A stretch of DNA of 64,000 nt from Crossaster papposus (taxonomy: Eukaryota; Echinodermata; Asteroidea; Velatida; Solasteridae): the NCBI GenBank assembly GCA_037893245.1, contig JBAIAA010000787.1, positions 62,001-126,000 on the forward strand, read 5' to 3'. Made by a program: the position numbers and the translations under genes. Shown in pieces: positions 17,542 through 60,496 of this stretch (within the stretch, counting starts at the first letter, position 1; each line of letters opens with the position of its first letter). Under the pieces are notes generated by a model. That model was not told the origin of the DNA, did no database searches, and worked only from the letters and a program-made list of their open reading frames with translations.

Positions 17542-17829
17542 ATTATTATTACTATGCCTATCCTCCTGATAGTTTACTGGCGTTGCTTACCTTCCTATAC
17601 TATAGGGTGTGTGAAAGCCGGTAGCGCAGAGCATACGCAGAAAGAAATCCAAATTTTGGCGCGAGTTTTGTCACGTGGAAACACGTCCGACCACGACGGC
17701 GGCTCCGAGAGATCCCTCTCAATCTGTGAAAGTTTCAATCTATTATAAGCATAATTATTAACGACGTTACAGAGGGAAAAAAATCACCAAATTCTGTGCG
17801 GCTGTTGTTTTCCGAGCGAGAAGAAACTT

Positions 17830-19545: not shown

Positions 19546-19709
19546 AGTAATAGGCCTACGTTTAGTCTTTGTCTGATTTTTTTTGTATTTGTTTTTAACT
19601 TTTAAAATTGTTTTTAATAATGATACTTTTTGTTTTAACAATTTTATTACAAGTAATACTGCAAGCTTTCTAATATTTTTGTAAGGGGCTGGCATGCATT
19701 AATTATGTG

Positions 19710-20305
19710 AACCCGGGATCCCGGTTGACTGAACCGGGATCCCGGTTGATTGAACCCGGGATTCCGGTTGAGTGGAACCACTCAACCGGGATCACAGTTG
19801 AGTGAACCCGGGATCCCGGTTAGATGAACCGGGATCCCGGTTGGATTTAACCGGGATCCCGGGTGGATTTAACCGGGATCCCGGTTGGATTTGGATTTAA
19901 CCGGGATCCCGGTTGGATTTAACCGGGATCCCGGTTGGATTTCCGGCGGGAAAAACTTGCGGGATTTTTTGGCGGGATTATCCGGGATCCCGGTTAAATC
20001 CAACCGGGATCCCGGTTAAATCCAACCGGGATCCCGGTTAAATCCAACCGGGATCCCGGTTAAATCCAACCGGGATCCCGGTTAAATCCAACCGGGATCC
20101 CGGTTAAATCCAACCGGGATCCCGGTTAAATCCAACCGGGATCCCGGTTAAATCCAACCGGGATCCCGGTTAAATCCAACCGGGATCCCGGTTAAATCCA
20201 ACCGGGATCCCGGATAATCCCGCCAAAAAATCCCGCAAGTTTTTCCCGCCGGGATCCCGGCGGGATTCCCGGCGGGATCCCGGCGGAATCCCGGCGGGAA
20301 TCCCG
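19710..20305. repeat. Right GGGATCCC array with internal palindromic cassette
   Basis: About 26 copies of CCGGGATCCCGG are present. From 19980 to about 20215 they form a near-perfect 22-bp tandem, GGGATCCCGGTTAAATCCAA plus CC. That run is bracketed by inverted 50-bp segments (19942-19992 and 20203-20253) containing GCGGGATTTTTTGGCGGGA and its complement, so 19942-20253 is a self-contained palindromic cassette. The neighbouring array 19840-19940 has the unit in the opposite orientation. Confidence 0.9.
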
Positions 20306-20323
20306 GTTGTTTTTTCTATAGGG

Positions 20324-29958: not shown

Positions 29959-32130
29959 TCTATACTATAAAAGATGTTAAATTCGCCATCTTGTCCCTGG
30001 GCGCCGCCATCTTGGAACGCAGGGCCGCGCCATCTTGGAAACACAGGGCCGCGCCATCTTGGCGCGTGGTTGGCGCCATGTTGGCTTTTGGTCGGGCGAC
30101 TTGTCGCCGCGCGCGCGTGCCGCCGGCGTCGGTGCGGCGGGGTGCCGGACCGTTCGCGACGGGGAATCCCCCGGGGAATCCCCCGGGGAATAAGATTTAA
30201 AAAAAATCGTATTCGTCCGTGGTGAGATTTAAAAGAAACGGACGTTACCGATAAACGCGTAATCGCTTTTCGATTGCCTGTCGATGTCTGCGGGCCTTTT
30301 TGCGCGAACTATTGCGTTATTTTTGCATTGTCCTTGACCGGAGTTCGGGCCGAAGCCTTCCCGAAATCGTACTGCCGTAACTCGGTTGCCGAATTGTTGG
30401 CCGTTTGCGATTAAGCGGCGGCTACATGCGTTACGCGAAGCCTTCGCAAATTAATTGTATCCGCCTTGCTTGCGCGGTGGCCGAGTTGGTGCCGAGTTTG
30501 TTGTTCGCGATTGGGCGGCCCGTCCCGTGTTATTTGACCTTTATACTCCATTGGTTATTGCGGAGTTTGAGCGCCAGCTTCGTTTTCGGCTTTGAATTTC
30601 GTGCGCGTCGACCACATTGCAGTCACAGGCTTGGAACGTTAAAAAATGATTTATTCCTTTCGTGTTGCCTTTTTGGCAAATTTCGTTGCTTCACATTGTC
30701 GATACTTAAATATTACAACATTATCTGTCTCAAAACACTCCGAAACATATCGCTATTGCCTCAATTTCAACTTTGATCGTGCAAAAATGTCGCGAAATTG
30801 TATGGCGATGGTGGATATGAATATGCAATTTAGAAACGTGACTACGTTTCGGCTTCGGCTTTGCCTCCGAATTCCTGCGCGTCGACCATTTTGTAGTCAC
30901 AGTTTTGGAACGTAAAAACAATGATTTATTCCTTTCGTGTTGCCTTCTGGCAAAATTGCTTCCTTTCACATTGTCAATACTTAAATATTACAACATTATC
31001 TCTCTAAAAACACTCCGAAACGTATCGCTATTGCCTCAATTTTAACTTTTATCGTTGAAAAATGTCGCGAAATTGTAAGGCCTATCGTGGATATGAATAT
31101 TCAATTTAGAAACGGGACTGCCTTACGTCAGTTGAGGGCGCACTGTCAGACGGCCGGTCTGTTGGTTTTTTTCAATCGTAACGACGTAAATCAGAAACCC
31201 CGAAGTGGTTCGTATTGTTTCCCGTACGATTCATGTTAAAAAATCACGAGACGCAGGCAGCATGCAAGCAAAGATGAACTGCCTATTGAGTATTATTAGT
31301 TCGGAAGTCGGGAAGTATTTTTACAAAGATTGTTTGTTATTCAGAGTCGATGGTATTCTACGGAGCCCCTAAAGGGACATATGACGAATACAAATCACCG
31401 TTACGAAATAATTTGAGTATTTTATTTCGTGCACTCAAAATAACTTATTTCGTGAGCTCGAAATGTTGTCGTGGCCACGAAATGACTTCGTGCGCTCCAA
31501 GAATATCTGTTCGTGAGCTCGAAATAATTTCGTGCGCTCGAAATACTTTCTAGCTGGTACTCTACTCGCTAAGTTTCGCGATTTGTTTGTCATACAATCC
31601 ATTATGTTTTTAAGACGTCAACAAGGGGTGCGTTCCACTTACGCGAACTGTTTGCGCGAACGTTCGCCAACGTTTTGAGTTGGCGTTAGGGGGAGTGGAA
31701 CGATATTTTAAAAACTACGTTTTCAAAATGGCGGCGCCCGGTGAAAGTGACATCGTTTGGTTCGCTGCTTTTTGTCCAACTCATTATTTTTCTTTAAAAG
31801 ATCCCTGTGACTGCTCAAAACAATCCACCGTTTATAACGAAAAGTATAAAACGTAAATAAAAACCGTGAAAAGAACCCTGCCGTCTGCTAACCGCTTCGC
31901 CATCATTAAAATACGTCACTGGCCAACAGCGAACAGCTCGGAATGTCGTTCGCCGTTTTCGCTAACGTTGGCCAACATAATTGGCGCACATTGCGTTCCA
32001 CTCACGCGAACAACGCTAACGTTGGCCAACGTTGGCAACGTTCGCTGGAGTGGAACGCACCCCAGGTGTATCTATAAGTTACGATTTCACCCAGCTAGCA
32101 GGTGCCGCGCGAAGCGCGGCATCCTGCTAG
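29959..32130 (+). mobile_element. Helitron unit 2 (long form, with MITE)
   Basis: The unit is 2172 bp, i.e. 1732 plus the 440-bp insertion. It contains the internal direct duplication (30643-30842 and 30919-31119, period 276) and the TTTCGTGAGCTCGAAAT-type degenerate repeat near 31425-31550. No protein-coding capacity is credible. Confidence 0.87.
31626..32062. mobile_element. 437-bp TIR element in Helitron unit 2
   Basis: This is the same element at the same unit position as 29454-29890, with the same AAG/CAG flanks including the same mutated base. It was therefore copied along with the unit rather than inserted twice. Confidence 0.87.
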
Positions 32131-33593
32131 TCTATACTATAAAAGATGTTAAATTCGCCATCTTGTCCCTGGGCGCCGCCATCTTGGAAACACAGGGCCG
32201 CGCCATCTTGGCGCGTGGTTGGCGCCATGTTGGCTTTTGGTCGGGCGACTCGTCGCCGCGCGCGCGTGCCGCCGGCGTCGGTGCGGCGGGGTGCCGGACC
32301 GTTCGCGACGGGGAATCCCCCGGGGAATCCCCCGGGGAATAAGATTTTAAAAAAAATCGTATTCGTCCCGTGGTGAGATTTAAAAGAAACGGACGTTACC
32401 GATAAACGCGTAATCGCTTTTCGATTGCCTGTCGATGTCTGTGGGCCTTTTTGCGTGAACTATTGCGTTATTTTTGCATTGTCCTTGCCCGGAGTTCGGG
32501 CCGAAGCCTTCCCGAAATCGTACTACAGTAACTCGGTTGCCGAATTGTTGGCTGTTTGCGATTAAGCGGCGGCTGCATGCGTTACGCGAAGCCTTCGCAA
32601 ATTGATTGTATCCGCCTTGCTTGCGCGGTGGCCGAGTTGGTGCCGAGTTTGTTTTTCGCGATTAGGCGACCCCGTCACGTGTTATTTGAGCTGGTGCCCC
32701 GATTTATACTTCCTTGGTTTACTGCGGAGTAAACATAGTACCAGTTGAGCTCCGGCTTCGAATTCGTGCGCGTCTACCACGTTTCAGTCACAGGTTGGGA
32801 ACGTTAACAAATGATTTATTCCTTTCGTGTTGCCTTTTGGGCAAATGTCTTTGCTTCACATCGTCGATACCTAAATATTACAACATTATCTGTCTCGAAA
32901 CACTCCGAAACATATCGCTATTGCCTCAATTTCAACTTTGATCGCGCAAAAATGTCGCGAAATTGTATGGCGATGGTGGATATGAATATGCAAATTTAGA
33001 AACGTGACTGCATTACGTCAGTTGAGGGCGCACTGTCAGATGGCCGGCCTGTTGGGTTTTTTAATCACGATTTTCACGATGATGTAAATCAGAAATCCCG
33101 AAGTGGTTCGTATTGTTTCCCGTACGATTCCTGTTAAAAAATCACGAGACGCAGGCAGCATGCAAGCGAAGATGGACTGCCTATTGAGTATTATTAGTTC
33201 GGAAGTCGGGAAGTATTTTTACAAAGATTGTTTGTTATTCAGAGTCGATGGTCTTCTACGGAGCCCCTAAAGGGACATAATGACGAATAAAAATCACCGT
33301 TACAAATAAATTTGAGTATTTTATTTCGTGCACTCAAAATAACTTATTTCGTGAGCTCGAAATGTTGTCGTGGCCACGAAATGACTTCTTGCGCTCCAAG
33401 AATATCTGTTCGTGAACTCGAAATAATTTCGTGCGCTCGAAATACTTTCTAGCTGGTACTCTACTCGCTAAGTTTCGCGATTTGTTTGTCATACAATCCA
33501 TTATGTTTTTAAGACGTCAACAAGGTGTATCTATTATTAAGTTACGATTTCACCCAGCTAGCAGGTGCCGCGCGAAGCGCGGCATCCTGCTAG
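32131..33593 (+). mobile_element. Helitron unit 3 (short form)
   Basis: The unit is 1463 bp, without the 437-bp insertion and without the 276-bp internal duplication. It has one fewer CCATCTTGG box than unit 1. Its sequence is closest to unit 1. Confidence 0.86.
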
Positions 33594-35325
33594 TCTATAC
33601 TATAAAAGATGTTAAATGCGCCATCTTGTCCCTGGGCGCCGCCATCTTGGAAACACAGGGCCGCGCCATCTTGGAAACACAGGGCCGCGCCATCTTGGCG
33701 CGTGGTTGGCGCCATCTTGGCTTTTGGTCGGGCGACTCGTCGCCGCGCGCGTGTGCGGCCGGCGTCGGTGCGGCGGGGTGCCGGACCGTTCGCGACGGGG
33801 AATCCCCCGGGGAATCCCCCGGGGAATAAGATTTTAAAAAAATCGTATTCGTCCGTGGTGAGATTTAAAAGAAACGGACGTTACCGATAAACGCGTAATC
33901 GCTTTTCGATTGCCTGTCGATGTCTGCGGGCCTTTTTGCGCGAACTATTGCGTTATTTTTGCATTGTCCTTGACCGGAGTTCGGGCCGAAGCCTTCCCGA
34001 AATCGTACTGCCGTAACTCGGTTGCCGAATTGTTGGCCGTTTGCGATTAAGCGGCGGCTACATGCGTTACGCGAAGCCTTCGCAAATTAATTGTATCCGC
34101 CTTGCTTGCGCGGTGGCCGAGTTGGTGCCGAGTTTGTTGTTCGCGATTGGGCGGCCCGTCCCGTGTTATTTGACCTTTATACTCCATTGGTTATTGCGGA
34201 GTTTGAGCGCCAGCTTCGTTTTCGGCTTTGAATTTCGTGCGCGTCGACCACATTGCAGTCACAGGCTTGGAACGTTAAAAAATGATTTATTCCTTTCGTG
34301 TTGCCTTTTGGGCAAATTTCGTTGCTTCACATTGTCGATACTTAAATATTACAACATTATCTGTCTCAAAACACTCCGAAACATATCGCTATTGCCTCAA
34401 TTTCAACTTTGATCGTGCAAAAATGTCGCGAAATTGTATGGCGATGGTGGATATGAATAGGCAAATTAGAAACGTGACTACGTTTCGGCTTCGGCTTTGC
34501 CTCCGAATTCCTGCGCGTCGACCATTTTGTAGTCACAGTTTTGGAACGTAAAAACAATGATTTATTCCTTTCGTGTTGCCTTCTGGCAAAATTTCTTCCT
34601 TTCACATTGTCAATACTTAAATATTACAACATTATCTCTCTAAAAACACTCCGAAACGTATCGCTATTGCCTCAATTTTAACTTTTATCGTGGAAAAATG
34701 TCGCGAAATTGTATGGCCTATCGTGGATATGAATATTCAATTTAGAAACGGGACTGCCTTACGTCAGTTGAGGGCGCACTGTCAGACGGCCGGTCTGTTG
34801 GTTTTTTCAATCGTAACGACGTAAATCAGAAACCCCGAAGTGGTTCGTATTGTTTCCCGTACGATTCATGTTAAAAAATCACGAGACGCAGGCAGCATGC
34901 AAGCAAAGATGAACTGCCTATTGAGTATTATTAGTTCGGAAGTCGGGAAGTATTTTTACAAAGATTGTTTGTTATTCAGAGTCGATGGTATTCTACGGAG
35001 CCCCTAAAGGGACATATGACGAATACAAATCACCGTTACGAAATAATTTGAGTATTTTATTTCGTGCACTCAAAATAACTTATTTCGTGAGCTCGAAATG
35101 TTGTCGTGGCCACGAAATGACTTCGTGCGCTCCAAGAATATCTGTTCGTGAGCTCGAAATAATTTCGTGCGCTCGAAATACTTTCTAGCTGGTACTCTAC
35201 TCGCTAAGTTTCGCGATTTGTTTGTCATACAATCCATTATGTTTTTAAGACGTCAACAAGGTGTATCTATAAGTTACGATTTCACCCAGCTAGCAGGTGC
35301 CGCGCGAAGCGCGGCATCCTGCTAG
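33594..35325 (+). mobile_element. Helitron unit 4 (long form, 1732 bp)
   Basis: A complete long-form unit with an empty site for the 437-bp insertion at about 35264. It differs from units 5-7 by scattered single substitutions. Non-coding. Confidence 0.87.
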
Positions 35326-37057
35326 TCTATACTATAAAAGATGTTAAATTCGCCATCTTGTCCCTGGGCGCCGCCATCTTGGAACGCAGGGCCGCGCCAT
35401 CTTGGAAACACAGGGCCGCGCCATCTTGGCGCGTGGTTGGCGCCATGTTGGCTTTTGGTCGGGCGACTTGTCGCCGCGCGCGTGTGCCGCCGGCGTCGGT
35501 GCGGCGGGGTGCCGGACCGTTCGCGACGGGGAATCCCCCGGGGAATCCCCCGGGGAATAAGATTTAAAAAAAATCGTATTCGTCCGTGGTGAGATTTAAA
35601 AGAAACGGACGTTACCGATAAACGCGTAATCGCTTTTCGATTGCCTGTCGATGTCTGCGGGCCTTTTTGCGCGAACTATTGCGTTATTTTTGCATTGTCC
35701 TTGACCGGAGTTCGGGCCGAAGCCTTCCCGAAATCGTACTGCCGTAACTCGGTTGCCGAATTGTTGGCCGTTTGCGATTAAGCGGCGGCTACATGCGTTA
35801 CGCGAAGCCTTCGCAAATTAATTGTATCCGCCTTGCTTGCGCGGTGGCCGAGTTGGTGCCGAGTTTGTTGTTCGCGATTAGGCGGCCCCGTCCCGTGTTA
35901 TTTGACCTTTATAATCCATTGGTTATTGCGGAGTTTGAGCGCCAGCTTCGTTTTCGGCTTTGAATTTCGTGCGCGTCGACCACATTGCAGTCACAGGCTT
36001 GGAACGTTAAAAAATGATTTATTCCTTTCGTGTTGCCTTTTGGGCAAATTTCGTTGCTTCACATTGTCGATACTTAAATATTACAACATTATCTGTCTCA
36101 AAACACTCCGAAACATATCGCTATTGCCTCAATTTCAACTTTGATCGTGCAAAAATGTCGCGAAATTGTATGGCGATGGTGGATATGAATATGCAATTTA
36201 GAAACGTGACTACGTTTCGGCTTCGGCTTTGCCTCCGAATTCCTGGGCGTCGACCATTTTGTAGTCACAGTTTTGGAACGTAAAAACAATGATTTATTCC
36301 TTTCGTGTTGCCTTCTGGCAAAATTTTTCCTTTCACATTGTCAATACTTAAATATTACAACATTATCTCTCTAAAAACACTCCGAAACGTATCGCTATTG
36401 CCTCAATTTTAACTTTTATCGTTGAAAAATGTCGCGAAATTGTAAGGCCTATCGTGGATATGAATATTCAATTTAGAAACGGGACTGCCTTACGTCAGTT
36501 GAGGGCGCACTGTCAGACGGCCGGTCTGTTGGTTTTTTTCAATCGTAACGACGTAAATCAGAAACCCCGAAGTGGTTCGTATTGTTTCCCGTACGATTCA
36601 TGTTAAAAAATCACGAGACGCAGGCAGCATGCAAGCAAAGATGAACTGCCTATTGAGTATTATTAGTTCGGAAGTCGGGAAGTATTTTTACAAAGATTGT
36701 TTGTTATTCAGAGTCGATGGTATTCTACGGAGCCCCTAAAGGGACATATGACGAATACAAATCACCGTTACGAAATAATTTGAGTATTTTATTTCGTGCA
36801 CTCAAAATAACTTATTTCGTGAGCTCGAAATGTTGTCGTGGCCACGAAATGACTTCGTGCGCTCCAAGAATATCTGTTCGTGAGCTCGAAATAATTTCGT
36901 GCGCTCGAAATACTTTCTAGCTGGTACTCTACTCGCTAAGTTTCGCGATTTGTTTGTCATACAATCCATTGTGTTTTTAAGACGTCAACAAGGTGTATCT
37001 ATAAGTTACGATTTCACCCAGCTAGCAGGTGCCGCGCGAAGCGCGGCATCCTGCTAG
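35326..37057 (+). mobile_element. Helitron unit 5 (long form, 1732 bp)
   Basis: A complete long-form unit, nearly identical to units 6 and 7. The internal duplication and the 3' hairpin are intact. Confidence 0.87.
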
Positions 37058-38789
37058 TCTATACTATAAAAGATGTTAAATTCGCCATCTTGTCCCTGGG
37101 CGCCGCCATCTTGGAACGCAGGGCCGCGCCATCTTGGAAACACAGGGCCGCGCCATCTTGGCGCGTGGTTGGCGCCATGTTGGCTTTTGGTCGGGCGACT
37201 TGTCGCCGCGCGCGTGTGCCGCCGGCGTCGGTGCGGCGGGGTGCCGGACCGTTCGCGACGGGGAATCCCCCGGGGAATCCCCCGGGGAATAAGATTTTAA
37301 AAAAATCGTATTCGTCCGTGGTGAGATTTAAAAGAAACGGACGTTACCGATAAACGCGTAATCGCTTTTCGATTGCCTGTCGATGTCTGCGGGCCTTTTT
37401 GCGCGAACTATTGCGTTATTTTTGCATTGTCCTTGACCGGAGTTCGGGCCGAAGCCTTCCCGAAATCGTACTGCCGTAACTCGGTTGCCGAATTGTTGGC
37501 CGTTTGCGATTAAGCGGCGGCTGCATGCGTTACGCGAAGCCTTCGCAAATTAATTGTATCCGCCTTGCTTGCGCGGTGGCCGAGTTGGTGCCGAGTTTGT
37601 TGTTCGCGATTGGGCGGCCCGTCCCGTGTTATTTGACCTTTATACTCCATTGGTTATTGCGGAGTTTGAGCGCCAGCTTCGTTTTCGGCTTTGAATTTCG
37701 TGCGCGTCGACCACATTGCAGTCACAGGCTTGGAACGTTAAAAAATGATTTATTCCTTTCGTGTTGCCTTTTGGGCAAATTTCGTTGCTTCACATTGTCG
37801 ATACTTAAATATTACAACATTATCTGTCTCAAAACACTCCGAAACATATCGCTATTGCCTCAATTTCAACTTTGATCGTGCAAAAATGTCGCGAAATTGT
37901 ATGGCGATGGTGGATATGAATATGCAATTTAGAAACGTGACTACGTTTCGGCTTCGGCTTTGCCTCCGAATTCCTGCGCGTCGACCATTTTGTAGTTACA
38001 GTTTTGGAACGTAAAAAAATGATTTATTCCTTTCGTGTTGCCTTCTGGCAAAATTTCTTCCTTTCACATTGTCAATACTTAAATATTACAACATTATCTC
38101 TCTAAAAACACTCCGAAACGTATCGCTATTGCCTCAATTTTAACTTTTATCGTTGAAAAATGTCGCGAAATTGTAAGGCCTATCGTGGATATGAATATTC
38201 AATTTAGAAACGGGACTGCCTTACGTCAGTTGAGGGCGCACTGTCAGACGGCCGGTCTGTTGGGTTTTTTCAATCGTAACGACGTAAATCAGAAACCCCG
38301 AAGTGGTTCGTATTGTTTCCCGTACGATTCATGTTAAAAAATCACGAGACGCAGGCAGCATGCAAGCAAAGATGAACTGCCTTATTGAGTATTATTAGTT
38401 CGGAAGTCGGGAAGTATTTTTACAAAGATTGTTTGTTATTCAGAGTCGATGGTATTCTACGGAGCCCCTAAAGGGACATATGACGAATACAAATCACCGT
38501 TACGAAATAATTTGAGTATTTTATTTCGTGCACTCAAAATAACTTATTTCGTGAGCTCGAAATGTTGTCGTGGCCACGAAATGACTTCGTGCGCTCCAAG
38601 AATATCTGTTCGTGAGCTCGAAATAATTTCGTGCGCTCGAAATACTTTCTAGCTGGTACTCTACTCGCTAAGTTTCGCGATTTGTTTGTCATACAATCCA
38701 TTGTGTTTTTAAGACGTCAACAAGGTGTATCTATAAGTTACGATTTCACCCAGCTAGCAGGTGCCGCGCGAAGCGCGGCATCCTGCTAG
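37058..38789 (+). mobile_element. Helitron unit 6 (long form, 1732 bp)
   Basis: A complete long-form unit. It shares the ATCCATTGTG variant near its 3' end with units 5 and 7, while earlier units read ATCCATTATG. Confidence 0.87.
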
Positions 38790-40521
38790 TCTATACTATA
38801 AAAGATGTTAAATTCGCCATCTTGTCCCTGGGCGCCGCCATCTTGGAACGCAGGGCCGCGCCATCTTGGAAACACAGGGCCGCGCCATCTTGGCGCGTGG
38901 TTGGCGCCATGTTGGCTTTTGGTCGGGCGACTCGTCGCCGCGCGCGCGTGCCGCCGGCGTCGGTGCGGCGGGGTGCCGGACCGTTCGCGACGGGGAATCC
39001 CCCGGGGAATCCCCCGGGGAATAAGATTTTAAAAAAATCGTATTCGTCCGTGGTGAGATTTAAAAGAAACGGACGTTACCGATAAACGCGTAATCGCTTT
39101 TCGATTGCCTGTCGATGTCTGCGGGCCTTTTTGCGCGAACTATTGCGTTATTTTTGCAGTGTCCTTGACCGGAGTTCGGGCCGAAGCCTTCCCGAAATCG
39201 TACTGCCGTAACTCGGTTGCCGAATTGTTGGCCGTTTGCGATTAAGCGGCGGCTACATGCGTTACGCGAAGCCTTCGCAAATTAATTGTATCCGCCTTGC
39301 TTGCGCGGTGGCCGAGTTGGTGCCGAGTTTGTTGTTCGCGATTGGGCGGCCCGTCCCGTGTTATTTGACCTTTATACTCCATTGGTTATTGCGGAGTTTG
39401 AGCGCCAGCTTCGTTTTCGGCTTTGAATTTCGTGCGCGTCGACCACATTGCAGTCACAGGCTTGGAACGTTAAAAAATGATTTATTCCTTTCGTGTTGCC
39501 TTTTGGGCAAATTTCGTTGCTTCACATTGTCGATACTTAAATATTACAACATTATCTGTCTCAAAACACTCCGAAACATATCGCTATTGCCTCAATTTCA
39601 ACTTTGATCGTGCAAAAATGTCGCGAAATTGTATGGCGATGGTGGATATGAATATGCAATTTGGAAACGTGACTACGTTTCGGCTTCGGCTTTGCCTCCG
39701 AATTCCTGCGCGTCGACCATTTTGTAGTCACAGTTTTGGAACGTAAAAACAATGATTTATTCCTTTCGTGTTGCCTTCTGGCAAAATTTCTTCCTTTCAC
39801 ATTGTCAATACTTAAATATTACAACATTATCTCTCTAAAAACACTCCGAAACGTATCGCTATTGCCTCAATTTTAACTTTTATCGTTGAAAAATGTCGCG
39901 AAATTGTAAGGCCTATCGTGGATATGAATATTCAATTTAGAAACGGGACTGCCTTACGTCAGTTGAGGGCGCACTGTCAGACGGCCGGTCTGTTGGTTTT
40001 TTTCAATCGTAACGACGTAAATCAGAAACCCCGAAGTGGTTCGTATTGTTTCCCGTACGATTCATGTTAAAAAATCACGAGACGCAGGCAGCATGCAAGC
40101 AAAGATGAACTGCCTATTGAGTATTATTAGTTCGGAAGTCGGGAAGTATTTTTACAAAGATTGTTTGTTATTCAGAGTCGATGGTATTCTACGGAGCCCC
40201 TAAAGGGACATATGACGAATACAAATCACCGTTACGAAATAATTTGAGTATTTTATTTCGTGCACTCAAAATAACTTATTTCGTGAGCTCGAAATGTTGT
40301 CGTGGCCACGAAATGACTTCGTGCGCTCCAAGAATATCTGTTCGTGAGCTCGAAATAATTTCGTGCGCTCGAAATACTTTCTAGCTGGTACTCTACTCGC
40401 TAAGTTTCGCGATTTGTTTGTCATACAATCCATTGTGTTTTTAAGACGTCAACAAGGTGTATCTATAAGTTACGATTTCACCCAGCTAGCAGGTGCCGCG
40501 CGAAGCGCGGCATCCTGCTAG
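38790..40521 (+). mobile_element. Helitron unit 7 (long form, 1732 bp)
   Basis: The last complete unit. Its CTAG end (40518-40521) is followed by TCTATACTAT and then by unrelated-looking but compositionally similar sequence. Confidence 0.87.
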
Positions 40522-40859
40522 TCTATACTATTAATCCTGAAGATGGGGTATGGTTGGCGCCATCTTGTGGACGGTTCCCCGTGTGCCGTGTACCTGTTTG
40601 CGCGCGGAGGGTGGGAGGGAGCCCGTCTATCTGGCCGCGCCATTTTGGGTCTGGTGTCCTGTTTGCCCGCCGCGGTATAGTGTGGGGTAGCGGATGTGGG
40701 GGCCCGTCTTTTGCACGGGCCTCCCGTCGGAATTGCGCGGTGGCTGCGCCGGTCCCGCGTGAAGTTTGCGGTGGCGACGCAGAGTATGGAAAGGAGCCTG
40801 TCTACTGTCGTGCTGGATGATATCGCGTTCGTGTACGTACTCTATAAACACCAAACACG
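40522..40859 (+). mobile_element. Possible 5' end of a divergent Helitron
   Basis: It starts TCTATACTAT immediately after unit 7 and keeps the CpG-rich character and a TGGTTGGCGCCATCTTG box found near the start of every unit, but otherwise differs. This could be an eighth, diverged unit truncated by the TIR element starting at 40860. Confidence 0.5.
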
Positions 40860-44190: not shown

Positions 44191-44747
44191 TACATTTCCT
44201 ATAAACATTTTGCTGTTAGATTATATTTTGCTACAACATTAGACTTATAAACATTTTGCTACAACATTAGATTTATGAGAACAAACGGCAACTTAACAAA
44301 CGGCTGTGAGATTGTCCGTATTCCTTTTAATTCCCCTCCAGCGCAATATTTTCTTTTTGATTTTTTTTAAAGAAAGAAACATCTGAATCTAAGTAACCAT
44401 TTCGCTACAGTTTCCCCCTAAAAAACAATATTTTTAGGCCTTTCAGAAAACGAAGTACATTTTCTATAAACATTTTGCTGTTTCAGAAATGTTGTTGCCT
44501 TTCAGAAAACGAAGTTTATTTTTTTAAAGAAAGAAACATCTAATTAAAGTAACCATTTCGATGCACACACCACACATTTCTTTTATCAGATAGTGCAGAC
44601 AATAAAAAGCTTTAGACTGCTATGCATACACATTTTCTTTCTCTTTGTGCTTAAATGTTCCCCATGAAACGGGTTTTTTTGCAGTGCAATTTAATAGCAG
44701 TGAATTCTAAATAATTGTACATTTTGCTCTGTATGTTTCTTTCATAG

Positions 44748-44809
44748 ATCGTTCAGAGTCATTCTCACTTGAATCTGCCACATCAGAAATTCCTGCACCC
44801 CCGTAACAG
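44748..44809 (+). other. Putative 62-bp internal exon, copy 1
   Basis: The acceptor TTTCTTTCATAG ends at 44747 and a donor CAG|GTACAT follows 44809. One frame reads HSHLNLPHQKFLHP. It is duplicated at 50128-50188 with acceptor and donor conserved and with the upstream intron sequence (AATAATTGTACATTTTGCT) also duplicated. No family is recognised. It may be host exon or part of a repeat. Confidence 0.4.
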
Positions 44810-45279
44810 GTACATTCTGATTTATAAGCAGATAAATAAATGGTACACACACGGTCAGGATTTGTGTAGTACACGCCTAGCCTCAGCCAAACGATTTTTG
44901 CTACCGTTTCATGAGGGGCCACTGGGAATTGTGTAGAACCAAATGTATATAGAAGTTAGTGTTTTGATCATCGAGTGACCTGGTCTGTTGACCCCGTCAG
45001 GAGACCAGGTCAACATACCAATTGCACAATGATGTCTAACATCTGCAAGCCATTAAATTACACGTATATACAATCCTTTGACAGCTATGCATACAACTTT
45101 TTTCTTTCTCTTTGTTTTTCAATTTTCCCCATGAAACAGGTTTTTTTTGCAGTGAATTTAGCACTAGTAGTGCTGCAGATAGGTGAAAGTATTGTGGGTT
45201 TGATGAAACAAGCATGAAATTTTGCATGCAGGTAGACTAAACCCTTGTGATCATTTTTAGATGTAGGGCCATCTCAGAT

Positions 45280-45760
45280 TCGACCTGTGACAAAAAATGG
45301 CGGCCATTTTCAAAATGGCCGCCGGCGGCCATTTTGAAAAACATAACAATCCATATATCTGGCCCCAAGTAAGTTAAAATGACAAAAACGGTGTCCTTTT
45401 CACATAATATTTGCATGACTAATCCAATGGAATGCATATTGAACCATTTTGAGATTCCCAGGGTACCCAAATCCAAGATGGCTGCCATCCGCCATTTTGA
45501 AAAACATACAAATCCACATATCTCGCCCCAAATAAGTTAAAATGACAAAAAAGGTGTCCTTTTCACATAATATTTGCATGACTAATCCAATGGAATGCAT
45601 ATTGAACCATTGTGGGATTCCCAGGGTACCCAAATCCAAGATGGCTGCCATCCTCCATTTTGAAAAACATAAAAATCCATATATCTGGCCCCAAATAATT
45701 TAAAATTACAAATAAGGTGTCCATTTCACATAACATTTGCATGACTAATCCAATGGAATG
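45280..45760. repeat. 163-bp tandem repeats, left arm (three copies)
   Basis: Period 163: landmarks AATCCAATGGAATGCATATT and CCAAGATGGCTGCCATCC recur at 45420, 45583 and (partly) 45747. Frames inside stay open across units (MAAILDLGTLG), an artefact. Each unit contains AAGATGGCTGCC next to CGCCATTTTGAAAAACAT. Confidence 0.88.
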
Positions 45761-45762
45761 GC

Positions 45763-47631
45763 TCATTCAGAGCACTGCCCACCGCATTGACAAAGAGCTG
45801 TACACCAAAGAGCTGCCTTCTGGCATTTGCAGCGTCCTCTGCAGCCGGTCTTGCAGCCAAATCGCAAGAGTTTCCTGCAAACGTCTGATGCTTCTAGTAG
45901 GTTCGTCCAGGTTATACTCCATCCACTATCAGGTTTCTTGTTCCAGCCCCATTCACTTGGTGACGGAAACCGTGGAGCAGGGGTCATCATTTGGGCCCAA
46001 CAGTGACCAGCTTGGTAGGCAGCTCTCTTCGTGTGTTGGATGAGTGCAGCCTGTGTAGGAGGCAGACCATCAATAGCTCTGCCTTTCTTGCTGAACAGCT
46101 GTTTCCTCGCCTGATTCACACCCTCCTCTGTGCTGGTTCGATCGTATAGCAGCACCACGAATCGCTCCAGGGGTTTCATCCACTCGTCAATGGCACATGG
46201 GTCTGGCATGGCACCCAAGGCAGAGAATGCGGGTGTGACGTCTCCATAGGCGGTCCAGGTGCCCCATGCAGTCTTCTTGCCCCTGCCGCCAAAACAGGAC
46301 ACTGTGTCACAACCTGTGAAGGCGTGGAACATCGGCAAGGCCACACATCGGTCAGGACCAAGAACTTTGGCGATCTCATGAGCAGCGATGAACCTGAAGC
46401 TCTTCCCAACTCCAAAGGCAATCCACAGTTCAGAGATGTTGAGGCGATTGGCTGATGCTATGGCCAGGACTACCACGTCTGTATCAACTGTGCGTATTGA
46501 TACTTTGCTGTATCCCTGTTGTACGGCATCCTGTAGGTGCAGGAAGATTCGCGTGTCAGCCTCCTCATGTGTGCATGGCGCTAAAGCTGACACGTCCTGT
46601 CGATTAGAGCAAATAACTCCAGTGCCTTGTGTGGTGATGATATGTTTGTTGGTGTCAATGTCTGCTATGTTAGAGGCCAAGAAGGAGAACAGCTCCGTCT
46701 TGTTGTCGTCAAGGCGGAGAAACTCTTGCCAATTTCCAGGAACTGCACTTGTTGGTTCGACTCGTCTCCTAACTCCCTTTCCTCTCTTGCTGCGAGTGTC
46801 CGCCTTCAAGCTGTCTGCCATGTACAGATCCCACACAATGTCTAGTCTGTCGACATGCTGCAGCTGGGATGTGACATACGGCACGAAGACATCAGTGGCA
46901 TAACCTTGGAATGTCTTTGCAGTCCCTGATCGCAGCATGTTGATGATGGCAGCACCATCCAAGATGCTGACTTCTACTCGGGGGGTGGAGAGATCATCTA
47001 TCACCGGAACAAGGTTTTCCAGGCAGGGCATCAAGTCAGACTTGGTTCCAGTTCTCAGGCCACCCATCTGAGACAGAGATGGTGGACATGCCTGGTTTTC
47101 GTGCTGGAAGAACTCGTCCAAATCACCATGGCGTATCTAGGAGGCAATGTACAGCCTGAAGAAGAGCGAACAGTCGTTCTTCAGGGATGACATCTGTAGC
47201 TGTTTCCTTGACTTCTCTCTGACTGGTGGGCGGCTGAATAGATGGAGGTTGTTCCGCTTGATGGGATCTGTGATAGGCACTGTCTGGTTCACAAGCCTCT
47301 CTTCAACATATGTCTCATACTTCTCGAGCCCAAGTTTCTCCATCTGCCGTACCGTGTCTGCCACTGCTGTGTCCATAACATCTCTGCTGTTCAGGACAAG
47401 GAGATCATTGCTGCTTTCAGTGAATGGGTTCCCCATCTCTTCCATTACTCGGCTTAGTGATCGCACATCTTGTGCAAATGCCATTTGTGCATGTCTCTTC
47501 TGTTCGTGGTGACGTACATCTGTGTTTTGTCTCTTCTCGGTTGATCCCTCGAATTCCTGAATTAAACGAGCCATCTCGGGACCAGATACCATCCAGCGAC
47601 GAAGAGCGGCGGGGTTCTCCGTCAGGCCCAC
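45763..47631 (-). pseudogene. FEN1/XPG-like PIN nuclease with C-terminal cysteine domain, copy 1 (one nonsense codon)
   Basis: A single frame of about 620 codons runs from 47631 to 45763, broken only by a TAG at about 47136 where copy 2 has CAG. After the stop a 452-residue open part begins at 47121. Numbered from there, acidic motifs fall in FEN1/XPG order: D55 in SILDGAAI, D97 in IVWDLY followed by a Lys/Arg-rich stretch, E186/E187/D189 in HEEAD, D213/D215 in RTVDTDVVVL, and D272 in FTGCDT followed by GGRGKKTAW, which resembles the helix-hairpin segment. The end (about 420-452) is CX3CX3CXCX6CX3CXCX3C, similar to CXC/tesmin-type DNA-binding clusters. The N-terminal 160 residues are helical and unassigned. 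Nuclease identity is inference from the motif layout. Related uncharacterised proteins are, to my knowledge, common in marine invertebrates. Confidence 0.65.
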
Positions 47632-47745
47632 AGCCCCACCGTCTCCCTTTACAGAAGCATTGTTCTGCTCATGGGCCTGGTCAATAGCAACAGCAGAGAA
47701 TGCACGTCTGGACTTCTTGACATGCTGAGTTTATGAAGGGGAACT

Positions 47746-49465
47746 TTGTTGTCAAGAAGTCCAGACGTGCATTCTCTGCTGTTGCTATTGACTAGGCCCA
47801 TGAGCAGAACAATATGCTTCTGTAAAGATGGACGGTGGGGCTGTGGGCCTGACGGAGAACGGAGAATGGTTTCTGGTCCCGAGATGGCTCGTTTAATTCA
47901 GGAATTCGAGGGATCAACCGAGAAGAGACAATACACAGATGTACGTCACCACGAACAGAAGAGACAAGCACAAATGGCATTTGCACAAGATGTGCGATCA
48001 CTGAGCCGAGTAATGGAAGAGATGGGGAACCCGTTCACTGAAAGCAGCAGTGATCTCCTTGTCCTGAACAGCAGAGATGTTATGGACACAGCAGTGGCAG
48101 ACACGGTACGGCAGATGGAGAAACTTGGGCTCGAGAAGTATGAGACATATGTTGAAGAGAGGCTTGTGAACCAGACAGTGCCTATCACAGATCTCATCAA
48201 GCGGAACAACCTCCATCTATTCAGCCGCCCACCAGTCAGAGAGAAGTCAAGGAAACAGCTACAGATGTCGTCCCTGAAGAACGACTGTTCGCTCTTCTCC
48301 AGGCTGTACATTGCCTCCCAGATACGCCATGGTGATTTGGACGAGTTCTTCCAGCCCGAAAACCAGGCATGTCCACCATCTCTGTCTCAGATGGGTGGCC
48401 TGAGAACTGGAACCAAGTCTGACTTGATGCCCTGCCTGGAAAACCTTGTTCCGGTGAAAGATGATCTCTCCACCCCCCGAGTAGAAGTCAGCATCTTGGA
48501 TGGTGCTGCCATCATCAACATGCTGCGACCAGAGACTGCTGTTCTCCTTCTTGGCCTCTAACATAGCAGACATTGACACCAACAAACATATCATCACCAC
48601 ACAAGGCACTAGAGTTATTTGCTCTAATCGTCAGGACGTGTCAGCTTTAGCGCCATGCACACATGAGGAGGCTGACACGCGTATCTTCCTGCACCTACAG
48701 GATGCCGTACAACAGGGCAGCAAAGTATCAATACGCACAGTTGATACAGACGTGGTAGTCCTGGCCATAGCATCAGCCAATCGCCTCAACAACTCTGAAC
48801 TGTGGATTGCCTTTGGAGTTGGGAAGAGCTTCAGGTTCATCGCTGCTCATGAGATCGCCAAAGTTCTTGGTCCTGACCGATGTGTGGCCTTGCCGATGTT
48901 CCACGCCTTCACAGGTTGTGACACAGTGTCCTGTTTTGGCGGCAGGGGCAAGAAGACTGCATGGGGCACCTGGACCGCCTATGGAGACGTCACACCCGCA
49001 TTCTCTGCCTTGAGTGCCATGCCAGACCCATGTGCCATTGACGAGTGGATGAAACCCCTGGAGCGATTCGTGGTGCTGCTATACGATCAAACCAGCACAG
49101 AGGAGGGTGTGAATCAGGCGAGGAAACAGCTGTTCAGCAAGAAAGGCAGAGCTATTGATGGTCTGCCTCCTACACAGGCTGCACTCATACAACACACGAA
49201 GAGAGCTGCCTACCAGGCTGGTTACTGTTGGGCCCAAATGATGACCCCTGCTCCACGGTTTCCGTCACCAAGTGAATGGGGCTGGAACAAGAAACCTGAT
49301 AGTGGATGGAGTATAACCTGGACGAACCTACCAGAAGCATCAGACGTTTGCAGGGAACTCTTGCAATGTGGCTGCAAGACCGGCTGCAGAGAACGCTGCA
49401 AATGCCAGAAGGCAGCTCTTCGGTGTACAGCTCTTTGTCAGTGCGGTGGACAGTGCTCTGAGTGA
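47746..49465 (+). pseudogene. FEN1/XPG-like PIN nuclease, copy 2 (internal deletion)
   Basis: This is the inverted duplicate of copy 1. The N-terminal half (to 48561) is open and reads through the position where copy 1 has a stop. Around 48527-48540 about 240 bases present in copy 1 are missing: the segment from just after NML to before SFLASN, which includes the second Asp motif and the basic stretch. The frame then changes. The remainder (to 49465) keeps HEEADTR, TVDTDVVVL, TGCDTVS and the C-terminal cysteine cluster. The two copies differ by scattered substitutions, so they carry different disabling lesions. Confidence 0.65.
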
Positions 49466-49474
49466 GCCATTCCA

Positions 49475-49935
49475 TTGAATTTATAGTCATGCAAATGTTA
49501 TGTGAAATGAACACCTTATTTGTAATTTTAACTTATTTGGGGCCAGATATATGGATTTTTATGTTTTTCAAAATGGCGGATGGCAGCCATCTTGGATTTG
49601 GGTACCCTGGGAATCCCAAAATGGTTCAATATGCATTCCATTGGATTAGTCATGCAAATATTATGTGAAAAAAAACACTTTTTTTGTCATTTTAACTTAT
49701 TTGGGGCGAGATATGTGGATTTGTATGTTTTTCAAAATGGCGGATGGCAGCCATCTTGGATTTGGGTACCCTGGGAATCCCAAAATGGTTCAATATGCAT
49801 TCCATTGGATTAGTCATGCAAATATTATGTGAAAAGGACACCTTTTTTGTCATTTTAACTTATTTGGGGCGAGATATCTGGATTTGTATGTTTTTCAAAA
49901 TGGCGGATGGCAGCCATTTTGAAAATGGCCGCCAT
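49475..49935. repeat. 163-bp tandem repeats, right arm (three copies)
   Basis: The inverted counterpart of the left-arm array, with the unit GCAGCCATCTTGGATTTGGG recurring at about 49583, 49747 and (diverged) 49911. Array sizes are equal in both arms, so the array predates the inverted duplication or has been kept homogeneous with it. Confidence 0.88.
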
Positions 49936-50127
49936 TTTTTTGTCACAGGTCGAATCTGAGATGGCCCTACATCTAAAAATGATCACAAGGGTTTAGTCTA
50001 CCTGCATGCAAAATTTCATGCTTGTTTCACCAAACCCACAATTCGTCCAACTATTTCACCTATCTGCAGTACTATAGCAGTGAATTCCAAATAATTGTAC
50101 ATTTTGCTTTTTATGTTTCTTTCTTAG

Positions 50128-50188
50128 TCAAAGTCGGTCATTCTCATTTGAAACTGCCACATCAGAAATTCCTGCACCCCTGTTACAG
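50128..50188 (+). other. Putative 61-bp internal exon, copy 2
   Basis: The acceptor TTTCTTTCTTAG ends at 50127 and the donor CAG|GTATGT follows 50188. It is similar to copy 1 at 44748 (HSHLKLPHQKFLHP in one frame) but one base shorter, so the two copies would put downstream exons in different frames. Mutually exclusive use is possible but speculative. Confidence 0.4.
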
Positions 50189-50420
50189 GTATGTGTCATG
50201 TATAGGAATCTGACAGTCAACATTGCATTTTTACCTACAAGAGGATTTTTCAACATTCTCCACGCATTCACCAAAACCCCATTTTTTTCAGCTTTCCCTC
50301 TTTCACCTATTTTGTTTCCAATCACAAGTCCACCTTTTTCAGTGCATCTCAACCTACCTATACCGTTTCCCTATAGAATCTTTACCTACCTATCCGTATT
50401 TTTCTTGACTCTTTGGACAG

Positions 50421-50699: not shown

Positions 50700-51799
50700 A
50701 TTTTATTTTTATACTATTATTTTTGGTTCTCTTTATTACCTTTTTAGTACTCCAATTTTAATACTAGGTACATACTACGTGTATAAAACTCATAGACAGC
50801 ATAAATGCATCCTCTCATGGGATCTCACTGGTTTTTATTAAGGTACTCCATATGTGTGTATAAACTAATCATTTTCAATAGCTATCATGTAACACAGAGC
50901 CGTATTGTATAAATTTACTATTTATTTGGGGTTTATTTGCAATTTGTTTGGATGAATGAGGTTCCAGTAAATTTTAAACAAAATTGAAAATGTTTGGGTC
51001 AGGAGCCCAAAAATAGGGTCGGTCGGGAATGAGAACCACATAAAAAGGGCCGTCCTAATAAACCCACCCTGCGAGAGCTGAATAATTTTCCAAAGGCCTA
51101 TTCGATTTTATATCTAAATGATTTAACAACAAAGGACATAATGATCCTATAAAATTCCTATAAAATTGTCAATACCTTTCTAACCTAATTTGGTATTACA
51201 ATTTAATTACTAAAATCTGGAAAGTCATGCATGGTCGTGGTTAGTCATAACATTTATGCAACTCTTTTTATTTCCCATTTTGTAATAAAGGTCGTTTCAC
51301 AACATTTAATTTTAAATTGTCCCAGTTGTATCCTTTCCTTAGCTGTTATGAATACTGGTATTATTTTGTACCCGATAGCAGGCTATTCAATTTCAGATCC
51401 CATTTACAACTGCGTCGTCGGGGAACTACATATTTTCGCCATTTTCCAACTATATATTTTACAATAGGCCTAATGCATTCGCGAGTAGTAACATTTTTTT
51501 TCACTAAAGGTTTTTTTTTCGGCATCTATTGAAATATTATTGGTGTACATCCCGGAGGCTGCCTGTCGACATGGCTGCCTGTCCGGTCGGCATGACTTTG
51601 CACTGTATGCAGTGGCCCATGATCTATTTAAGGAAAATAGCAAGGTTTTTATTTGAGCAAGTAATACTTTTAATTGAAAACTTTCTGATTTAATGATGTA
51701 TAACTGAACTATTTGAAACATGAAACAAACCTTTACCACACATTTGAAAAGCATCATGGAATGACAAACAAGCAAGTTTATACACACACACCTAGCTGT
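50700..51799. other. Non-coding DNA, nothing recognised
   Basis: AT-rich sequence without coding blocks or terminal repeats that I can identify. It ends at the Helitron 3' fragment. Confidence 0.35.
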
Positions 51800-51932
51800 T
51801 AGTCTACTCCCTAAGTTTCGAGGTTTGTTTGTCATACAATCCATTATGTTTTTAGGACGTCAACAAGGTGTATCTATAAGTTACAATTCCACCCAGCTAG
51901 CGGGTGCCGCGCGAAGCGCGGCATCCCGCTAG
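51800..51932 (+). mobile_element. Solo 3' end of the arrayed Helitron family
   Basis: TCGAGGTTTGTTTGTCATAC through CTAGCGGG-hairpin-CCCGCTAG (ends 51932) matches the last about 130 bp of the array units, with compensating changes in the outer stem (CTAGCAGG to CTAGCGGG paired with CCCGCTAG). A 5'-truncated copy 11.4 kb downstream of the array. Confidence 0.85.
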
Positions 51933-52084
51933 TAGAGAAAATTCCTTTCTCTATGCCCTAACCCCTAACCCTAGTCAGATCCCAGACAACTCTAACATCA
52001 TCGATGACGTCAACAACATCTGTGTTCTGATTGGCTAATAAATGTACACTATATGTACCAACCTACCTGCAGATAAAATTATCG

Positions 52085-57464: not shown

Positions 57465-59484
57465 TTCAAATTGTTCGTCCAGTAGGGAGAGCAATATGTT
57501 GAGGGTTTCGTCTGGTTCAATTTGTTGTTCGAAAAAGCCAGAGTCTGCGTTGAGAGTGGTTCGAGCTTTTGATTTTGCTGTGGTAGTTTAGCTCTTATTA
57601 GTTTCTCCCGAATGTATTGGGCTTTTTTGAAGGCAATGAATGGAGGTTTCGGAAATAGTTCCGAAAGTATTTGATTGCCTTAGATTAAGTTCCAGTGTTT
57701 GTTTATTGCTAGATGTGTGCCACCGTGGTTTATGGCTGGGCTGTAGGTGGTTGTGAAGACAAGTGGAATTTGTTTTGTTTTTTCTCCATCTTTCGTGTTG
57801 TGTATCAGTCTCGTTCGGTCGGCATGTGAGACTTTGGTTGTCGCTGTTTTGGTCTCATTGGGATTGTAACCTCTTGTGGTTAGTTTCTCTGAGAATGTTT
57901 TGACTTTGTTGTGGAAGTCATCCGCGTTGTTGGTGTTTCTAACGTATAGCGGAGTGTTTCTCCGTATATGAACGCTTTGAAAATATGGGGTGGGTGGGAT
58001 GATGTTTTATGGAGATATTGGAAGGTTTACGTTGGTTTGGTGTAGACTTTGGTGTCTAGGATTCCTGTTTTATGGAAACGGTCTCCTTTGAATATAGTTA
58101 AGTCAAGGTATTTGATTGATGAGTCAGAGGCTTCGTATGTGAATTTTAGAGTTGGGTGCATCTTGTTTATCTCCGTAATGAGATTTGGGAATTCGTTCAG
58201 AGTTCCGTTGTAGATGACCAGTATATCGTCTCTATAGCGCCACCATGTGAGGATGTTATCCGCTTTTTCTAAGTCGTGCAATGTGATGTTACCAATTTCA
58301 GGGCTGGATGTAGAGCTCATTGCACAGCCAATTTTCTGGAGAAAGAACTTATTTCCGAATTGGAAACAGTTGCGGCCAAGAATGAGTTCCAGAAGTTTTG
58401 GGATGTAAGTCGAGGGTGGTTTTGTGATCGGATGGTTATGGTTTGTGTGTGTTTTCGAGGGCCTTGCAAACGCATTGGATTGCTTCCGTCTGTCGGACAT
58501 TTGTGTATATACATAGAAACAACATCGATGCTTGTAATTAAGACATCTTGTGGAAATTGTCTTTCTTCCAGTTTGCGGAAATTATGTCTGCTTTGTCGCG
58601 GACATATATGGGTTGTGCGGTTACGGTGGAAAGAAGAAAATAGTCTATGTAATCTGACATTTTGGCCGTAGGGCTGGTACATCCACTTATAATTGGTCGT
58701 CCAACAAAAGGTTCTCCCGGTGGCGGAGTTTTGGGTATTTTGGGGAGAAAAAAAATGGTTGGACAGTTTTGTGGAAGTGGGTCGAGGTATTTCAGAGTAT
58801 CGTTGTTGATGTGTTTGTTGTTTCTCATTTCAATTAGTGTGTTGTGAACCATCATAATAGTTTGTGGGGTAATGTCTTGGTCCAGTTTGGTATAATGATG
58901 GGACTCAGGGTGGTGGTAACCCACTTGTAGATAGTCTAAGTGGTTCATAATGCAGATGCCTCTGCCTTTGTCATATGGTTTGACTACGATGTCAGGATTG
59001 TTTTTAAGTTTGTTTATGGCGAAAAGTTCTTGTGTGGTCATGTTTTTCTGCCGATTCCTTAGCCTGATGTGGGCCAGTTCGAATTTTGTGGCTTCCAAAT
59101 ATTCTTCTAGTGTTGCACTAGGGGATGATTTTGGTTGCCATTTTGGTGGTGGTTTGAAAGGATGGTTTTTGGAACGTTTGTTACGCATTAAGAATGCAAT
59201 TCTTAGTCTTCGATTGAAGGTACTCACTTACAAGTGAAATGCGGTTTGGTTTCGCAGGAGTGCATGGGTACGAAGTTTAAACCTTTTCCTAAAGCAATTA
59301 TTTCAGTTTGCGATAGTGTTGCTTTGGATAGGTTCGTTATGAAAGATTGACATTGTTCTGCTAGTGAGCGCAAATAATTGGAGTTGACTCGTTTGGTTTT
59401 CGATTTGCATTTGTTAGAGAAATGGTTAGATTTCGATTGACTTATGGATCTCTTGGTTTCTTTGTTGAGTTTTCTTCTTGCCAT
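57465..59484 (-). pseudogene. Penelope-like element reverse transcriptase
   Basis: Consecutive frames on the minus strand (59484-59224, 59227-58538, 58682-58317, 58500-58027, then to 57465) give an almost complete Penelope-like reverse transcriptase. The N-terminal motif is LSQTEIIALGKGLNFVP, then FNRRLRIAFLMRN, then DIVVKPYDKGRGICIMNHLD and IFFLPKIPKTPPPGEPFVGR. The catalytic blocks are ITSIDVVSMYI and WWRYRDDILVIYNGT, followed by IKYLDLTIFKGDRF and, further down, IPLVFTTTYSP. The reading ends near 57465 in an acidic tail (LNILLSLLDEQFE) with no GIY-YIG endonuclease signature. At least four frameshifts and one stop make it inactive. In this family the enzyme copies element RNA into the genome. 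Confidence 0.85.
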
Positions 59485-59662
59485 GGTAGTTACAAGATTT
59501 GTAAATTGTAGTTTGAATATAACGGATAAGGTATGGAGTGGGTTATATTCAAGTTTATTTATTATAATTATTATATTATAGAGGCAAGATGACGGATTTA
59601 TCTCTTTTGAGAAGATGTGGTGGTCCTGAAAAGGACCCTTTGGTTTTGTGGTTAGAGATCGA

Positions 59663-60260
59663 CTAGTGTTGTCGGTTTCTTTTGATGCCTCTTGTAGGTT
59701 GGTAGGGTCTTGTGAAGAAGCTCAGGAGTTGTTGAGCGGTGGGATAATCTGGAACCTGGAAATATTGAGCAAGCTTTTCTTGGGCTGAGCGTCTGGCGTT
59801 GTTCAGCTGGGCCTCGGTAATTCCTGTGAAGTGCAGCGATGTTCTTCTCTGGAGATTGCTCCAGCGATCCTGGAATGACCCCTGGAATTTTAGGGCTCGG
59901 TGTGGACGTGGTGGCCGTATTTTTACCTCGATATAAGGTGGTGTTGTGCTAGTCTCGATTGACCGGGAAAGGGGTCGTATTTGGCGGGTGAAGTGCTCCT
60001 TGACAGATGTCAAAATGTTGACGTTGACTGCCAGGAGTTTCACCAGTCTGAAGTTTTCCTCGGATAATTTGTGTGAGACCGTGGTTGGTGTGGTTCTTGA
60101 TGTGGACGGGCCAGAGTCTAGTTCACATGATAGAAGAAGTGACTCATCGTCACTTGGAATGCTGTTTGGGGATGCTGGATGAAATGTAGCTGGATGAAGA
60201 TGGAGGAGGCTGGCTGGACTTGCTCTTCTTGCGTGAGTTGGACTTGCTAAACTTGATGCA
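59663..60260 (-). pseudogene. Unassigned open segment upstream of the Penelope-like RT
   Basis: The minus-strand frame is open from about 60260 to the stop near 59663 (about 200 codons), with no ATG near its start; a GTG lies at 60043. It contains a Ser/Thr-rich part (SGPSTSRTTPTTVS), then LVKLLAVNVNILTSVKEHFT and a basic C-terminus. A frameshifted basic segment (SRKKSKSSQ) overlaps upstream. Its position suggests a leader ORF of the Penelope-like element; no homology is recognised. Confidence 0.4.
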
Positions 60261-60496
60261 ACTGTGCAACAGGTTTATTAATCTGTTCCTGCGCCCTCTA
60301 CTTGATAGGAACTTCACAGAAATTGCCGATACAACCAAATTTGTAGGGGGGGGGGGGGGGGTGTCATAAATAAACCCGTTACATGTTCATTATGTAGGCC
60401 TATGCCTATCCATATCCACATAGGCCTACTATCATTATACAGTATACTACTGGGCTTTGTTTTGTATTCTAGTGCATTTATTAATACATTTCCATT

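Follow-up and report, generated by a model that had tools for sequence, protein, structure and literature searches.

Within a 64,000-nt stretch of Crossaster papposus DNA (contig JBAIAA010000787.1, assembly GCA_037893245.1, positions 62,001 to 126,000; hereafter the window) lies a long palindromic element at 45168-50074. The original prediction, made from the sequence alone, described this palindrome as a mobile element that has no transposase and carries, and is perhaps driven by, a FEN1/XPG-like nuclease. Our analysis favours a different reading, to which we assign a probability of about 60 %: the palindrome is a defunct, folded-back remnant of a DNA transposon; the parent's protein, of about 1400 amino acids (aa), combined a transposase with a nuclease, and the parent was most likely AcademX-like. 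Read this way, what appears to be a transposase-free mobile system becomes an understandable fragment.

The inverted repeat is far beyond chance. Self-comparison of the window and blastn both bear out the predicted arrangement of inverted gene copies around a 27-bp spacer. The main inverted blocks measure 764, 674, 180, 64 and 47 nt, with complementarity of 94-98 %. The four longest are each 98 % complementary and pair 45747-46510 with 48718-49481, 46919-47592 with 47866-48539, 46514-46693 with 48538-48717, and 47659-47722 with 47750-47813, with 27 nt between the two halves of the last pair. By blastn, identity is 94.1 % over 1640 columns for the inner palindrome (46919-48539) and 96.3 % over 1540 columns for the outer arms (45168-46693 and 48538-50074). 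Folding of 47300-48200 gave a structure that none of 20 dinucleotide shuffles equalled (z -67.6).

The bounds first proposed for the element, 45159-50077, are in the right place, but the best boundaries are those given above, which scored highest when terminal inverted repeat, flanking TAG and junction were judged together. The matching terminal sequences that had been reported are present and agree at 19 of 20 positions. The TAG found on both sides is a candidate target duplication, seen at one element copy. Both flanks of the element are duplicated nearby without it: 44633-44680 matches 45100-45147 at 90 %, 44685-44747 matches 50065-50127 at 87 %, and 44758-44812 matches 50137-50191 at 93 %. 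The predicted paralogous empty site is therefore real. A longer target duplication of 8 bp, GCAGTGAA, is perfect on either side of 45157-50076; we rejected it as evidence of insertion because the paralogous empty site already contains GCAGTG twice.

Two gene copies are present in the arms, as predicted, but both are pseudogenes, and the open reading frame (ORF) on which the prediction was based represents only the C-terminal half of the protein of about 1400 aa. The conceptual product of copy 1 is termed P0001. The internal deletion of copy 2, about 225 bp, removes the counterpart of 46694-46918, and this copy has several small insertions or deletions (indels) plus an in-frame TAG of its own. 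It also extends about nine codons (AEFMKGNFV) farther upstream than copy 1. At the palindrome centre the sequence of copy 2 is AEFMKGNFVVKKSRRAFSAVAID, and the junction of copy 1 lies at VKKSRRAFSAVAIDQ; the two copies start at almost the same point inside a longer coding sequence. When arm is compared with arm over three coding blocks (1596 bases), there are 32 substitutions, 11 synonymous and 21 non-synonymous, giving a ratio of non-synonymous to synonymous change (pN/pS) of 0.57. We do not read this ratio as a sign of selection because so few changes cannot tell whether the arms decayed once the palindrome had formed or whether two older copies were joined.

One explanation for such a structure is technical, namely that an assembly or sequencing artefact produced a hairpin read of one copy; artefacts are known to yield inverted copies that lie head to head with only a short spacer between them. 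However, the arms differ by the substitutions just listed, by separate small indels and by the deletion confined to one arm, and an artefact is hardly credible here. The palindrome is a genuine structure that encodes no complete protein, and we take it to be inert unless served in trans.

The evidence that the window holds a truncated gene comes from an intact relative. A degenerate DNA pattern of the motif TGCDxxSxFxGxGK, run on a collection of prokaryote genomes, matched four contigs. Among them L002 (JAJRVU010000273.1), recorded as part of a metagenome-assembled genome (MAG) of Planctomycetota, encodes a relative; none was found at E 1 or better in the other three (L003-L005). The relative, P0002, is the product of an uninterrupted ORF of 1445 codons on the minus strand of L002 (2115-6449). 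Copy 1 aligns to residues 760-1420 of P0002 with 29 % identity (E 2e-62) and copy 2 to residues 1158-1420. For residues 1-759 the best match that the window offers is not significant (E 2.8). The P0002 gene is single. Its contig, which is 6.5 kb long and includes only 63 bp upstream of the ORF, showed no inverted repeat above 26 nt.

These features bear directly on the idea of a transposase-free element whose native form is the palindrome and which is moved by a FEN-like nuclease acting on the element's own hairpin or cruciform junctions. The window alone would allow it, with matching termini at an apparent insertion site that enclose two nuclease halves and no N-terminal half. Against it, both copies in the window are broken and begin mid-way in a longer coding sequence, and the relative's gene is uninterrupted and of double length. 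Because that gene is single and longer, with an extra N-terminal part of 759 residues unmatched in the window, a defective derivative is a better reading of the palindrome than a native design. The notion of a nuclease driving a palindromic element without transposase is not supported and is highly improbable. The accompanying proposal that FEN activity is tied to the junctions formed by palindromes is a conjecture.

The N-terminal half of P0002 offers a candidate for the transposase. DUF6589 (PF20231) weakly matches about 200 of its residues; when the protein was scanned in three different cuts, the E values were 0.003, 0.0017 and 0.0008. Proteins with DUF6589 are, as we assume, common in fungal genomes and similar to Academ-type transposases; we likewise presume that the AcademX nuclease is of XPG type and that the pairing of DUF6589 with an XPG nuclease links a protein to Academ. 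The literature searched contained no mention of DUF6589. We conclude that the N-terminal half of P0002 probably represents the transposase that is lacking here. Since the intact P0002 has this half, with its weak DUF6589 match, and the window has no counterpart of it, the absence of a transposase from the window is probably explained by truncation. At the other end of the protein, PF03638 (CXC-type) gave a faint match at E 1.1, on P0002 only.

The taxonomic label of L002 needs some care. The gene of the relative is present in 1 of 392 genomes from the phylum of the L002 record, and that one is L002's own record, where it occurs once. We accordingly take L002 to be, probably, eukaryotic contamination in a Planctomycetota MAG, which the count fits and does not prove. 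XPG_I was not detected in L002's own genome.

We next consider the nature of the half that the palindrome retains, which on its sequence features is likely to be FEN/XPG-like. Eight acidic residues had been named as FEN-like before P0002 was known. They are found where they had been placed, except that the residue called D97 is D98 of the 452-aa ORF (D297 of P0001). In the alignment of P0001 with P0002, identity extends to 26 of P0001's 74 acidic residues, all eight named ones included (hypergeometric 1e-4). Restricting the count to P0001 245-495 leaves 12 identical residues out of 27, again including all eight (hypergeometric 2e-4). Within the basic stretch described after the second Asp, K305, R309 and R312 are kept in P0002.

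A motif chain was written from FEN sequences, with its spacing ranges set while the window protein was known. It matches eight of nine FEN/XPG segments (XPG is the exception), both transposon proteins and 1 in 300,000 shuffles of P0001. Only 2 of the 74 frames of at least 100 aa in the window match, and these are the two gene copies. A bacterial-type phage FEN is not matched by the chain.

Profile alignment gives a further indication. P0001 and P0002 were combined into a profile, trimmed to P0001 370-505, which hhalign aligned with nine FEN/EXO1/GEN1/XPG segments at a score of 28.2 (E 2.9e-4 for a single comparison, probability 40 %, 22 % identity over 50 columns). The aligned columns run from before the helix to GCD...GxGK and are in the expected register. 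None of 300 column shuffles (best 21.8) and none of a further set of 2000 (best 24.1) attained this score, and the reversed profile scored 10.6. In a series of eight sliding windows, the one holding the whole aligned stretch scored 28.1 and one with the GCD...GxGK part 23.6, with the other six at 9.6-13.5. The acidic residues, the motif chain and the partial profile alignment argue for the predicted FEN1/XPG-like nuclease and fall short of proving it.

A number of observations weigh against our interpretation. The hhalign result supports only the part of the domain around P0001 435-485, which includes just D471 among the acidic residues and leaves EAD and DxD unaligned. Longer queries, namely the entire domain and the entire protein, score 28.8 but at a lower probability, 28 % and 14 %, respectively. 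Pfam gives no significant match to the retained half, as represented by copy 1. A FEN hidden Markov model (HMM) built from the same nine segments scores P0001 at -0.7 bits, a value exceeded by more than 100 members of a set made up of 1000 shuffles and 345 window frames, and gives P0002 only 6.3 bits, though in the same register. Five archaeal FEN-1 segments alone yield no signal (11.9), against 26.0 for the four human segments. When single sequences are used in hhalign, P0001 scores 18.9 compared with a best of 18.7 in 300 shuffles, and P0002 scores 17.5, which 3 of 300 shuffles exceed. Two AlphaFold models, built from one and two sequences, are unusable, with a mean predicted local distance difference test (pLDDT) of 35 and 33; a PIN/FEN fold is absent among the Foldseek matches listed for these models (13 of 13, and the best 50 of 314), a result that carries no weight. 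The DUF6589 match to P0002 is always below the curated cut-off of Pfam. Finally, the ends of the element and its target duplication rest on one copy in this genome.

Alternatively, the retained half may not be a FEN/XPG nuclease at all, its acidic residues coming from another fold such as part of a transposase. The lack of a significant library match, the silence of archaeal FEN-1 alone, the confinement of the profile alignment to the GCD...GxGK part and the unusable structural models would all be compatible with this. But all eight acidic residues are kept in P0002 in order, spacing and identity, and the profile-profile alignment held up against its controls. We consider a fold of another kind to be quite unlikely, and continue to treat the retained half as FEN/XPG-like.

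Searches for further relatives were negative. In viral contigs, none was found by protein, alignment or DNA patterns; one viral pattern match (L007), phage-like by its ORFs, was dismissed as a chance match on its tblastn values (E 0.013 and 0.12). Searching prokaryote genomes by protein returned five stretches that fit the pattern, none of them a relative, and tblastn with the 452-aa ORF detected no relative in phages and plasmids. Sequence searches of the PDB, and searches of PHROGs and NCBIfam, returned nothing relevant.

How may such a palindrome have formed? We hypothesize that the parent protein consisted of an N-terminal half that is probably a transposase, followed by a FEN/XPG-like 5' structure-specific nuclease domain and then by a C-terminal cysteine-rich domain. 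The transposase half would cut and join the ends. The FEN-like domain might trim 5' flaps or resolve branched intermediates at excision or integration, and the cysteine domain may bind DNA, perhaps at the 163-bp subterminal repeats. A fold-back event, either a template switch or hairpin-primed synthesis, would have linked two 3' halves in head-to-head orientation across a 27-nt loop and, in the same event, stripped the N-terminal half from both copies. Afterwards the unit may have been inserted in trans by an intact copy; alternatively, the rearrangement may have taken place in situ during repair after excision. Insertion in trans and formation in place could leave the same flanks.

It is conceivable that the FEN-like domain itself acts on fold-back intermediates, and that palindromic derivatives arise as its regular by-products and can be passed on, with intact copies mobilising them in trans by cutting hairpins and trimming flaps. 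We regard this extension as very unlikely. What the derivative does bring into view is a protein architecture whose annotation is poor: a probable transposase joined to a FEN/XPG-like nuclease half, the latter unrecognised here by Pfam and by sequence searches of the PDB. Should the FEN activity prove real, elements of this type would bring their own junction-processing enzyme.

The features of the element and of its surroundings are collected in Table 1.

Table 1. Positions in the window of the palindromic element, its parts and the paralogous empty site
Feature	Position	Strand	Basis or remark
Paralogous empty site, an element-free local duplicate of the flanks	44607..44815	+	Self-comparison of the window
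Whole palindromic (fold-back) element	45168..50074		Best boundary call: terminal inverted repeat, flanking TAG and junction jointly score highest (boundary scan); blastn arm self-match
Candidate 3-bp target duplication TAG, left	45165..45167		Boundary scan; left flank inexact here against the paralogous empty site
Left terminal inverted repeat TAGTRCTGCAGATAGGTGAA	45168..45187	+	19/20 match to the right end (boundary scan)
163-bp subterminal repeat, 2.7 tandem copies	45328..45760	+	
Gene copy 1, C-terminal half of the transposon protein	45763..47718	-	651 codons (P0001), one in-frame TAG, without N-terminal half
C-terminal cysteine cluster of copy 1 (CXC-like, weak)	45766..45861	-	Most cysteines invariant against P0002
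FEN/XPG-like domain of copy 1 (P0001 about 245-495; putative)	46234..46986	-	D254, D297, E385, E386, D388, D412, D414, D471
Palindrome centre, 27 bp	47723..47749		Reads as upstream coding sequence of copy 2
Gene copy 2, same C-terminal half	47724..49465	+	Broken by frameshifts, TAG and the loss of about 225 internal bp
164-bp subterminal repeat, 2.7 tandem copies, inverted counterpart	49484..49921	+	
Right terminal inverted repeat	50055..50074	-	Boundary scan
Candidate 3-bp target duplication TAG, right	50075..50077		Boundary scan

Other repeats and mobile elements are found elsewhere in the window. A tandem array at 28071-40534 consists of units of about 1.73 kb, with copies up to 99.5 % identical, and a lone 142-bp piece of this unit (90-93 % identical) is located at 51792-51933. 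Two arrays of short units, at 10047-10391 and 19708-20306, contain the palindrome CCGGGATCCCGG. On the minus strand, 11419-17586 is a long interspersed nuclear element (LINE) with a zinc-knuckle ORF, endonuclease, reverse transcriptase and RNase H, its frame interrupted between 13254 and 13850. The fragment at 579-1007 is of a piggyBac-type transposase (DDE_Tnp_1_7, E 3e-17); with this fragment and the LINE, we read the window as animal-like. A match to the stem-loop of the histone 3' untranslated region (Rfam RF00032; 34.6 bits, gathering score 34) is present on the minus strand at 59596-59642, among the minus-strand ORFs of 58027-60274; three of these ORFs were scanned and had no Pfam match at E 0.01.

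Among known systems, the closest group to the parent is most likely AcademX, which pairs a DDD/E transposase with a nuclease; membership is unproven. A passage in PMC10045372 describes 9- or 10-bp target duplications for AcademH, which encodes a helicase, and 3- or 4-bp target duplications for AcademX, which encodes a nuclease. The window element compares with the latter in its FEN/XPG-like half and its candidate TAG, and the longer relative adds a probable transposase half. Unlike AcademX, the window element is palindromic and without the N-terminal half. If the FEN activity is real, it becomes testable, through the contrast between AcademX and AcademH, whether swapping a helicase for a nuclease goes with the length of the target duplication.

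The same palindromic derivative could have had a parent from a superfamily other than AcademX, or from an undescribed transposase-nuclease lineage. The superfamily call draws on the weak DUF6589 match, on the link of DUF6589 and XPG nuclease to Academ that we presume and on one literature passage, and no DDE triad was identified. On the other hand, the nuclease half and the candidate 3-bp target duplication agree with that passage's account of AcademX, and we hold a parent outside AcademX to be unlikely.

With the Rad2 nucleases FEN1, EXO1, GEN1 and XPG (Pfam XPG_I), the retained half shares the order and spacing of the acidic residues and a GxD...GxG helix-hairpin motif. It differs from them in being missed by Pfam, in its 22 % identity over 50 aligned columns and in the silence of archaeal FEN-1 used alone. 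The likeness to DUF6589 is a weak one; it lies in the N-terminal half of P0002, where it extends over about 200 residues, and to this half the window offers no significant match.

Fold-back or palindromic derivatives of DNA transposons are familiar from double-Ds, inverted-duplicate P elements, Galileo and FB. Like these, the window element has long inverted arms made from one part of a transposon and little or no functional coding. Unlike them, it is built from the nuclease half of its own family.

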